Positions 19,118-21,621 of a stretch of 36,367 nucleotides of DNA are shown one piece after another. The stretch covers positions 1-36,367 of the forward strand of contig QKGU01000096.1 in NCBI GenBank assembly GCA_003250325.1, given 5' to 3'. Position 1 is the stretch's first letter, and every line of letters begins with the position of its first letter. The translations under genes were made by a program, and so were the position numbers. A model generated the notes under the pieces. It was not told where the DNA came from and did no database searches. It worked only from the letters and a program-made list of their open reading frames with translations. Source of the DNA: Paludibacter sp. (GTDB lineage Bacteria; Bacteroidota; Bacteroidia; Bacteroidales; Paludibacteraceae).

Positions 19118-20113
19118 TTATAAATTCATTTCGAGATTAACAAGAAAACTGGTTGTTTGATTGCCTGTTGTTTTGTTTGAATACTGCACATTTGGTGCAA
19201 TCTTAATTCCTTTTACCGGCGAATACTCAAGTCCTGCAATATATACCTGACCGTCTGAAGTGTTCCAGCCACTTGTTGAAGTTCCTATTTTATCAGACAT
19301 GATATTGTCGAAACGTCCGAATACTGAAAGTTTTTTCACAACATCATAATTTCCGTAAACTGAGATTCCCGAGAAGTTATGATCTATTGTCATTTTATTT
19401 CCACTCTGGTAATTGTATTCCGCACCAATTGATCCTTTTTTACATTTATAACCCACAAAAGCACTTAAAGTACTTTGAGCATCATTTTTCTTCATATAAT
19501 CACCATATAAGCGAACATATAAATTCTTAATGGGCTCAGCAGTTAAGCCTGCGGCGAATTGAAATGCGCTGTCAGCCTGTACTTTTTTATAACCTTCACC
19601 ATTAAATACAGATAAGTCGACACTTAACTGTGGGATAATTTTGTAGCTTGCAGAAAGACCTAAATCTGCACTGCTGTTGAAACCATAATTATCCTGAAAT
19701 GATTTGTAGAGATATCGTTTTCCCCAAAATGACTCCTGCAATTTAAACGCTGCAGTACCAATTAATCCGAAGTCGGCATTAAACGATTCACATGCATAAC
19801 TTGCATAAGCATTTTTTAGAAAAACAGTAAAAGCTGATGGCGTTAGACCACCTGTGTTTGCAATATCAAATACAACTTTACCTGAAATGTTTTTACTAAA
19901 GTTATAGCCATAACCAAAATATGCCCGTTGTACTTCAAAAGCATAATTAGTCATGTTATTTGAATTTACCATCGAAAAATCGCTAAACACTTTAATAATT
20001 GGTTTTCCATTTGGGGTAAAAGTTTCGGAACTACTCTTAGTTTCCTGTGCGATAGCAAAAATAGATACAAAAAGAGAGAAAGCTGTTACAAGGATTTTAA
20101 TTTTCATTTTCAT
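19118..20113 (-). CDS. Porin, phosphate-selective type
   Basis: A 331-residue outer-membrane beta-barrel. A signal peptide (residues 1-22, ending FAIAQ) is followed by many short amphipathic strands with aromatic ends, closing with SFLVNLEMNL. The segment VQRAYFGYGYNFSKNISGKVVFDI and overall size resemble the porin O/P (phosphate-selective) family found in Bacteroidota. Placement directly before pstS supports phosphate uptake across the outer membrane. Two Met codons (20113 and 20107) are possible starts. The upstream region contains a -7-like box and four 11-bp-spaced TGTAATA units. Confidence 0.85.
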   Translation of the reverse strand: MKMKIKILVTAFSLFVSIFAIAQETKSSSETFTPNGKPIIKVFSDFSMVNSNNMTNYAFEVQRAYFGYGYNFSKNISGKVVFDIANTGGLTPSAFTVFLKNAYASYACESFNADFGLIGTAAFKLQESFWGKRYLYKSFQDNYGFNSSADLGLSASYKIIPQLSVDLSVFNGEGYKKVQADSAFQFAAGLTAEPIKNLYVRLYGDYMKKNDAQSTLSAFVGYKCKKGSIGAEYNYQSGNKMTIDHNFSGISVYGNYDVVKKLSVFGRFDNIMSDKIGTSTSGWNTSDGQVYIAGLEYSPVKGIKIAPNVQYSNKTTGNQTTSFLVNLEMNL

Positions 20114-20141: not shown

Positions 20142-20149
20142 CAAAGAAA
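20142..20149 (-). promoter_or_regulatory. -7 promoter element of the porin-pstS operon
   Basis: The minus strand reads TTTCTTTGC, one mismatch from TAnnTTTG, 28 bp before the ATG. No -33 TTTG is present; the TGTAATA array lies in its place. Confidence 0.5.
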
Positions 20150-20158
20150 CTGTATAGG

Positions 20159-20198
20159 TATTACAGTGTTACGGCAAATGTATTACAAAAATATTACA
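20159..20198 (-). promoter_or_regulatory. Pho-box-like operator: four 7-mers at exact 11-bp spacing
   Basis: On the minus strand the order is TGTAATA-TTTT-TGTAATA-CATT-TGCCGTA-ACAC-TGTAATA. Units start at plus coordinates 20192, 20181, 20170 and 20159. Three are identical and one is diverged. A 7-bp direct repeat with 4-bp spacers is the architecture of PhoB sites. The array ends 9 bp upstream of the -7 box, where a PhoB-type activator would replace the upstream promoter element. The genes controlled are a porin and pstS. Confidence 0.65.
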
Positions 20199-20304: not shown

Positions 20305-20343
20305 ATAAAAAAAAGGCTGCCAGAGTTTATTCCGACAGCCTTA
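20305..20343 (-). terminator. Rho-independent terminator after pgk
   Basis: On the minus strand AAGGCTG pairs with CAGCCTT, extended by further pairs including G-U wobbles, and is followed by at least nine T. It begins about 22 bp after the pgk stop. Confidence 0.85.
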
Positions 20344-20364: not shown

Positions 20365-21621
20365 TTAGAATCCGCGAATTGCTTCAATTCCTGGAAGTAC
20401 TTTTCCTTCCATGTATTCTAACATAGCGCCACCACCTGTTGATACGTAACTTACTTTGTCTGAAAGTTTGTTTTTGTTGATTGCAGCTACTGAGTCGCCA
20501 CCACCAATCAATGAGAAAGCCCCATTGGAAGTTGCAGTTGCTACAGCGTGAGCAATAGCAGTTGTTCCTTTTGCGAATTTATCCATTTCGAATACGCCCA
20601 TTGGACCATTCCAAAGAACTGTTTTAGAGTTGGCAATAACTTCGCTGAAAGTTGCAATAGTTTCGTCGGCAATGTCTAATCCCATCCAGCCTTCAGGAGT
20701 TTCATTTGTTTTAGAAATACATGTTGCTGCATCGGCTGCAAATTTATCAGCATTAACAGCATCAGTAGGAATATATACATTTACGCCTTTTGCTTTAGCT
20801 TTGTTTAAAATTTCAAGCGCTAAATCAAGTTTGTCAGCTTCACATAGTGAATTGCCAATTTCGCCACCCAAAGCTTTGATGAAAGTATATGTCATACCAC
20901 CACCAATAATCAGGTTCTGAACGCGGTCCAATAAGTTTTCTATAATTAAAATTTTATCAGAAACTTTTGCACCGCCCATAATGGCTGTAAAAGGCGATTG
21001 TGCTTCTTTTAAAACTTTATCCATGGCTACTAATTCGCTGTTGATAAGGAAACCGAACATTTTGTTTTCTTCAGTAAAGAATTGAGCAATAACAGCAGTT
21101 GAACCGTGAGCACGGTGAGCTGTTCCGAATGCATCGTTTACATAAACATCAGCATAAGAAGCCAGTTTTTTTGCAAACTCTAACTGATCTGCTTTTAATG
21201 CTTTTTTTGCTGCCTTTTTTTCTTCTTCGGTTGCAAATTCGCCACGCGGTTTTCCTTCTTCTTCTGCATAGAAACGAAGGTTTTCAAGTAAAAGAATTTC
21301 TCCGGCTTTCAATGCTGCTGCCTGCGCTTCAGCATTAGCACAGTCTTCTGCAAACTGAACAGGTAAACCAATTTTTTCTTCTACTGCTGAAATGATTTGT
21401 TTTAATGAAAATTTAGGATCCGGATTTTGTTTTGGACGTCCCATATGTGACATTAAAATAACAGAGCCGCCATCAGCGATAATTTTTTTGATTGTAGGCA
21501 ACGCACCACGAATACGTGTATCATCGCTTACAGCACCAGTTTCTTTGTTTAATGGAACATTAAAGTCCACACGAACAATTGCCTTTTTGCCGGCAAAATT
21601 AAAATTGTCAATAGTTTGCAT
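20365..21621 (-). CDS. pgk: Phosphoglycerate kinase
   Basis: Transfers phosphate between 1,3-bisphosphoglycerate and ADP in glycolysis, in the cytosol. The 418 residues show the two-domain family pattern: [12 protein letters not shown] (residues 13-24), [62 protein letters not shown] and the C-terminal [11 protein letters not shown], with [15 protein letters not shown] lysine-rich insertion at about 120-150 ([18 protein letters not shown]) makes it longer than the usual 390-400. The ATG at 21621 is followed by the expected MQTIDNFNF. It has its own promoter and a 128-bp leader, and ends in a strong terminator. Confidence 0.97.

Follow-up and report, generated by a model that had tools for sequence, protein, structure and literature searches.

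A tandem array of four 7-bp repeats in a Paludibacter genome is very probably a Pho box, that is, a docking array for the response regulator PhoB in front of a porin-pstS operon; from the sequence we infer that PhoB binds, in which direction it controls the genes and where transcription starts. The array lies in a stretch of 36,367 nucleotides, called the window here (Table 1). Judged by comparison across genomes, the predicted Pho box has the Bacteroidales consensus TGTAAYA, is coupled to the Bacteroidota -7 box and is order-wide, not phylum-wide. We found no Bacteroidota Pho-box consensus or PhoB binding site in the open-access literature. A consensus with exact promoter geometry makes the Bacteroidales phosphate regulon predictable from sequence.

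Table 1. Positions of the array, its promoter and genes, and of related loci named in the text (window coordinates unless a locus is given).
Feature	Position	Strand	Basis
Pho unit 4, distal, TGTAATA	20192..20198	-	direct read
Pho unit 3, TGTAATA	20181..20187	-	direct read
Pho unit 2, degenerate TGCCGTA	20170..20176	-	direct read
Pho unit 1, proximal, TGTAATA	20159..20165	-	direct read
9-bp spacer CCTATACAG, array to -7 box	20150..20158	-	length conserved
-7 box TTTCTTTG, of the TAnnTTTG type (primary sigma factor of Bacteroidota)	20142..20149	-	direct read
331-aa outer-membrane porin	19118..20113	-	signal peptide, then a barrel of 16 strands; OprP (2o4v) is the best match among solved structures
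PstS-type phosphate-binding protein, 270 aa	18264..19076	-	TIGR02136, 253 bits vs cut-off 206.6
Intrinsic terminator after pgk	20313..20342	-	terminator-like hairpin
pgk	20365-21621	-	
Host PhoB gene	L050:10698-11384 (G000:C385)		NCBIfam NF053854 (Bacteroides PhoB equivalog), 343.9 bits vs cut-off 270; array upstream
Host PHO4 (PiT-type) transporter	L051:1017-3281		array upstream
Small secreted protein, about 114 aa	L050:10100-10444; L106:320-664		array upstream; CarboxypepD_reg domain (tested on L050 copy)
Candidate small RNA	L134:4025-4192	-	array, conserved stretch and hairpin; z-score -3.7, terminator included
Candidate small RNA	L143:3607-3777	-	array, conserved stretch and hairpin
Candidate small RNA	L196:215-373	-	array, conserved stretch and hairpin

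Read directly on the minus strand from 20198 to 20142, the site is TGTAATA TTTT TGTAATA CATT TGCCGTA ACAC TGTAATA CCTATACAG TTTCTTTG. This agrees with the sequence-only reading, which had described four 7-mers starting at exact 11-bp intervals, 4-bp spacers and 9 bp to the -7 box. One caveat to the Pho-box reading is that this -7 box is off consensus at one position, agreeing at five of the six positions of TAnnTTTG (consensus position in PMC9723704). The porin start codon is 28 bp downstream of the end of the box. A -33 TTTG usually stands roughly 19-21 bp from the -7 box. The sole TTTG upstream of this one is 25 bp from it, so the box is without a -33 partner, as had been noted. The array consists of 7-bp direct-repeat units at 11-bp steps in a fixed place that replaces the -33 box, both of which characterize Pho boxes. 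The pgk gene lies upstream on the same strand and is followed by a terminator; we therefore assign the array a promoter of its own, isolated from pgk. Chance was assessed with 200 dinucleotide shuffles of the window, counting places where at least three of four 7-mers at 11-bp steps are identical. None of the shuffles (0/200) had such a place and the real window has one, with no such place in the window at periods of 8, 9, 10, 12, 13 or 14.

Of the 120 family genomes, 18 have homologues of the porin. A lack of the repeat before orthologous porin-pstS operons had been named in advance as refuting the Pho-box reading, and the array is in fact kept in several genera and two families. Upstream of these porin-pst operons the 11-bp phase persists, as does the 9-bp spacer, in porin homologues as distant as about 35-40% protein identity. 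For example, the upstream region of locus L013 reads TGTAACA-N4-TGTAACA-N15-TGTAACA-N9-TACTTTTG; its second unit is a degenerate CTTCACA, shared with other members of genus g33. Unit 2 is degenerate (CTTCACA/CTTCATT) in four of five homologues from the same genus or g33.

The geometry was then surveyed over a grid of periods 8-14 and spacers 4-14, a site being at least two good units (6/7) plus a -7 box. In the sample of family f1 (48 pst loci and control contigs, 652 kb), the combination of period 11 and spacer 9 gave 52 sites, all other cells gave 0-6 and reversed sequence 0-4. Family f2, which had not been used for discovery, gave 24 sites in the same cell, 0-3 in the others and 0-3 in reversed sequence. 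A positional table of 75 sites reads T-G-T-A-A-Y-A with C at position 4 in 5-20%, a description of the sites and no proof of the word, since they were chosen by that word. TGTAACA is slightly commoner than TGTAATA among the Bacteroidales units, the proximal unit has a near-invariant G and TGTAAYA core, and the TAnnTTTG box is followed by C in 75% of the 75 sites.

The array also follows gene function. Among genes with an upstream gap of their own, at loci picked around pstC, it precedes 37 of 99 phosphate-class genes vs 2 of 212 others in family f1 (Fisher 7e-19) and 19 of 60 vs 2 of 108 in family f2 (Fisher 4e-8); just 30-40% of the phosphate-class genes with such a gap pass the strict array cut-off. 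To avoid the bias of this choice around pstC, the exact two-unit pattern was also scanned without preselection over 85,462 prokaryote species genomes, and at least 119 stretches matched. The matches listed include 46 sites that their record titles place in Bacteroidota, 42 of which have a readable downstream ORF. Among these listed matches, 30 of the 42 are directly followed by a gene for a phosphate transporter, a phosphate porin or PhoB (PHO4, 8; Na/Pi cotransporter, 7; pst-operon porin, 7; Porin_O_P, 6; DUF47 (PhoU_div), 1; PhoB, 1). Other Bacteroidota sites among the matches listed stand before LRR genes (two) or before the candidate small RNA described below (three), and one LRR gene with an array is followed by a polyphosphate-kinase-like ORF. 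Conservation in phase and spacing, together with this phosphate gene context, upholds the original interpretation of the porin-pstS array as a predicted Pho box.

In the host genome, arrays also precede the genes for a PHO4 transporter and for PhoB. The distal unit pair before phoB recurs in genomes G001, G094 and G105, so that phoB has an array in four genomes in total, which suggests autoregulation of phoB. The same is seen in Bacteroides fragilis, where low phosphate raises the level of phoB transcripts over tenfold (PMC3547664). An array was also seen before a small secreted protein in two genomes (Table 1), and this protein is predicted from its array to be phosphate-regulated. Unit pairs on host contigs C13, C68, C131 and C402 were rejected as Pho sites, as they lie in or beside unrelated genes; given such loose matches in unrelated places, a unit pair without a -7 box is not diagnostic.

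A different OmpR/PhoB-type response regulator, one that controls porins and transporters under cell-envelope or other stress, could own the site instead. Many regulators of this type bind tandem direct repeats, Bacteroidales genomes encode many of them, and a few array sites stand before genes for TonB receptors, a TerC-family protein or LRR proteins. We consider this improbable, however, as phosphate is the common substrate of otherwise unrelated families preceded by the array (PHO4, Na/Pi, PstS/PstC, Porin_O_P, DUF47-PitA and ppk), and phoB itself has the array.

The reach of the consensus is narrower than had been proposed. The sequence-only reading offered a Bacteroidota Pho-box consensus, which holds for Bacteroidales (TGTAAYA, with C tolerated at position 4) but not for the phylum. 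The pattern TGTAAYA-N4-TGTAAYA-N9-TAnnTTTG (period 11, spacer 9) had 0 sites in 30 Flavobacterium phoB-like loci, and we therefore dropped the phylum-wide claim and set the scope as Bacteroidales. Pairs of GTTAC/GTTAA at distance 11 number 41 in Flavobacterium phoB-like loci (L342-L359 included) vs 4 in the reversed control. This 11-bp array precedes the phoB-like gene and probably corresponds to the Pho box in Flavobacterium. Across 396 genomes of the phylum, the exact two-unit pattern had just two sites, neither of them outside the order of the host and one before DUF47-PitA, and so the exact pattern is too strict as a phylum test. The DUF47 protein is near-identical between a genome of the same order and a Prevotella record. 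Outside the phylum, the exact pattern was seen in Alphaproteobacteria (SAR116 and Pelagibacteraceae; L147, L178 and L185) before genes that were judged PstS-like by eye from how their proteins begin; the TGTAAYA word is thus not unique to Bacteroidales. AT-rich Clostridia (L138, L149, L159, L162 and similar; G+C about 0.28) also have TGTAAYA pairs at 11 bp, which keep a constant position upstream of a minD/ParA-like gene and occur in other contexts and repeats as well. We judged these pairs to be a different class, a separate promoter element.

The occurrence of similar word arrays before unrelated genes in such A/T-rich Clostridia lends some weight to a structural explanation, in which strong promoters would contain the repeats as a DNA-structure or UP-element-like component that serves no specific regulator; A/T-rich units that lie roughly one helical turn apart could make the DNA bend. 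The exact phase and spacing and the near-invariant G and TGTAAYA core of the proximal unit leave this explanation very little room, as does the presence of the array before just 4 of 320 non-phosphate genes.

The 331-aa protein is, according to its modelled fold, a porin. An AF2 model (mean pLDDT 72), for which 13 sequences were aligned, has OprP (2o4v) as its best PDB match (E 6e-13, TM 0.68) and 16 strands, as in the OprP/OprO fold. The protein matched no Pfam family above cut-off, Porin_O_P (PF07396) included, and is only 15-20% identical to PF07396-type members; the name porin is justified by the OprP-type barrel fold. The window holds porin-pstS alone, and not the PstSCAB-PhoU operon in which pstS is accompanied by pstC, pstA, pstB and phoU. 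In relatives, the porin heads a porin-pstS-pstC-pstA operon. In the host genome, which is 94% complete, phoU had no match and the best pstC-like match reached 58 bits, far under the cut-off of 196. Thus, pstC and phoU seem to be absent from the host genome, which leaves porin-PstS by itself. The PHO4 transporter, which has an array of its own, may take the inner-membrane step. With the pst operon reduced in this way, the promoter could be decaying, and it departs from the consensus in unit 2 as well as in the -7 box; yet a chance cluster or non-functional relic is hardly credible when three perfect units stand in phase at the correct spacer before intact reading frames, intact operons show the same unit-2 degeneracy and two further phosphate loci of the host genome have arrays.

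At three loci (Table 1), some 160 nt of conserved non-coding sequence, closed by a terminator hairpin, lie downstream of an exact array and -7 box. This stretch is a candidate phosphate-controlled small RNA in MAGs of Muribaculaceae and Bacteroides, as predicted from the array. It matched no Rfam family at the gathering threshold, and a CM search of 399 family f2 genomes returned no further copies; five weak matches were rejected by eye as terminators only. We did not find pstC in the genomes behind L134, L215, L137 and L143.

We propose that, when phosphate is scarce, a PhoR-type kinase would phosphorylate the host PhoB (Table 1). PhoB would then bind the 11-bp units head to tail, as documented for such units (review PMC4415409), with the proximal unit at the position of the -33 box, and would recruit RNA polymerase, with its primary sigma factor, to the -7 box that follows after 9 bp. 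The OprP-like porin and PstS would be switched on, leading phosphate through the outer membrane and on to capture in the periplasm. This layout, in which the -10 box of the E. coli arrangement is exchanged for a -7 box, makes it simple to test by what means the unusual sigma factor of Bacteroidota is activated by a response regulator. Over its full length, the DNA-binding domain of the host PhoB aligns with the E. coli PhoB of the DNA-complex structure 1gxp, and the recognition helix reads RTIDVNITRLRKKI in the host vs RTVDVHIRRLRKAL in E. coli. Helices with ...HITRLR occur in a Bacteroidales PhoB and in a Calditrichia regulator, both with a TGTAACA-type array; Flavobacterium, without that array, has ...HIRKLR. 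Our guess is that the helix exchange, from ...HIRRLR in E. coli to ...NITRLR/HITRLR, may be what turned C into A at position 4 of the unit.

Taken together, these elements may belong to an undescribed, order-wide Bacteroidales PhoB regulon, readable from sequence by TGTAAYA-N4-TGTAAYA-N9-TAnnTTTG and including a phosphate-controlled small RNA, in which the host porin-PstS, stripped of PstCAB-PhoU, hands phosphate to a co-regulated PHO4 (PiT-type) transporter and the helix change may explain the C to A exchange. We advance this combined picture tentatively and think it doubtful that every part will hold.

Among known systems, the closest in layout is the E. coli pstS promoter, which was taken from a complete genome, where it stands directly before pstS. 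In the same frame it reads TGTCATA, TGTCATA, TTACATA, TGTCACC, N9, TATTTT. Like the array described here, this promoter, activated by PhoB with sigma-70, has four 7-bp units at 11-bp steps, of which the two distal are good, the third is degenerate and the proximal is good; 9 bp separate its array from the -10 box (in the TGTCANN frame), and it heads a pst operon. The sequence-only reading was right about PhoB geometry, but its statement that TGTAATA replaces CTGTCAT needs correcting, as the in-register unit is TGTCATA, one base apart. The differences lie in the unit (TGTAATA/TGTAACA vs TGTCATA, mainly A for C at position 4), in the promoter box (TAnnTTTG at -7, for the Bacteroidota sigma factor, vs TATTTT at -10) and in the first gene, which here encodes an outer-membrane porin. 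The PhoP unit of Bacillus subtilis is of TTAACA type and resembles TGTAACA. The PhoP boxes of Streptomyces coelicolor and B. subtilis also consist of 11-nt direct repeat units with 7 conserved and 4 variable positions (PMC4415409). The S. coelicolor word, GTTCACC, is a different one, and the promoter types of these systems differ too. The TGTAAYA array matches neither CTGTCAT nor GTTCACC, words of known species, but since the word varies between species (PMC4415409) it does not define the Pho-box class.

Within Bacteroidales, the host PhoB matches the Bacteroides PhoB equivalog NF053854. In the PhoRB system of B. fragilis, an organism of the same order (inferred), pstC is not induced unless PhoB is present, the PhoB gel-shift baits included the pstC promoter and PhoB matters for survival in abscesses (PMC3547664). 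In B. fragilis, pst induction in low phosphate depends on PhoB, as is predicted here; the main text of that paper states neither a consensus nor where the site lies ("consensus" 0 times, "Pho box" once). Flavobacterium johnsoniae likewise has a Bacteroidota Pho regulon, a phosphate-responsive PhoBR with outer-membrane porins and TonB transporters (PMC8115612). Unlike in Bacteroidales, Flavobacterium phoB-like genes have the 11-bp GTTAC/GTTAA array instead of the TGTAAYA pattern with its -7 box. The array described here is a well-supported case of an ordinary kind of regulatory site, whose lineage-specific word and promoter partner we did not find in the open-access literature.
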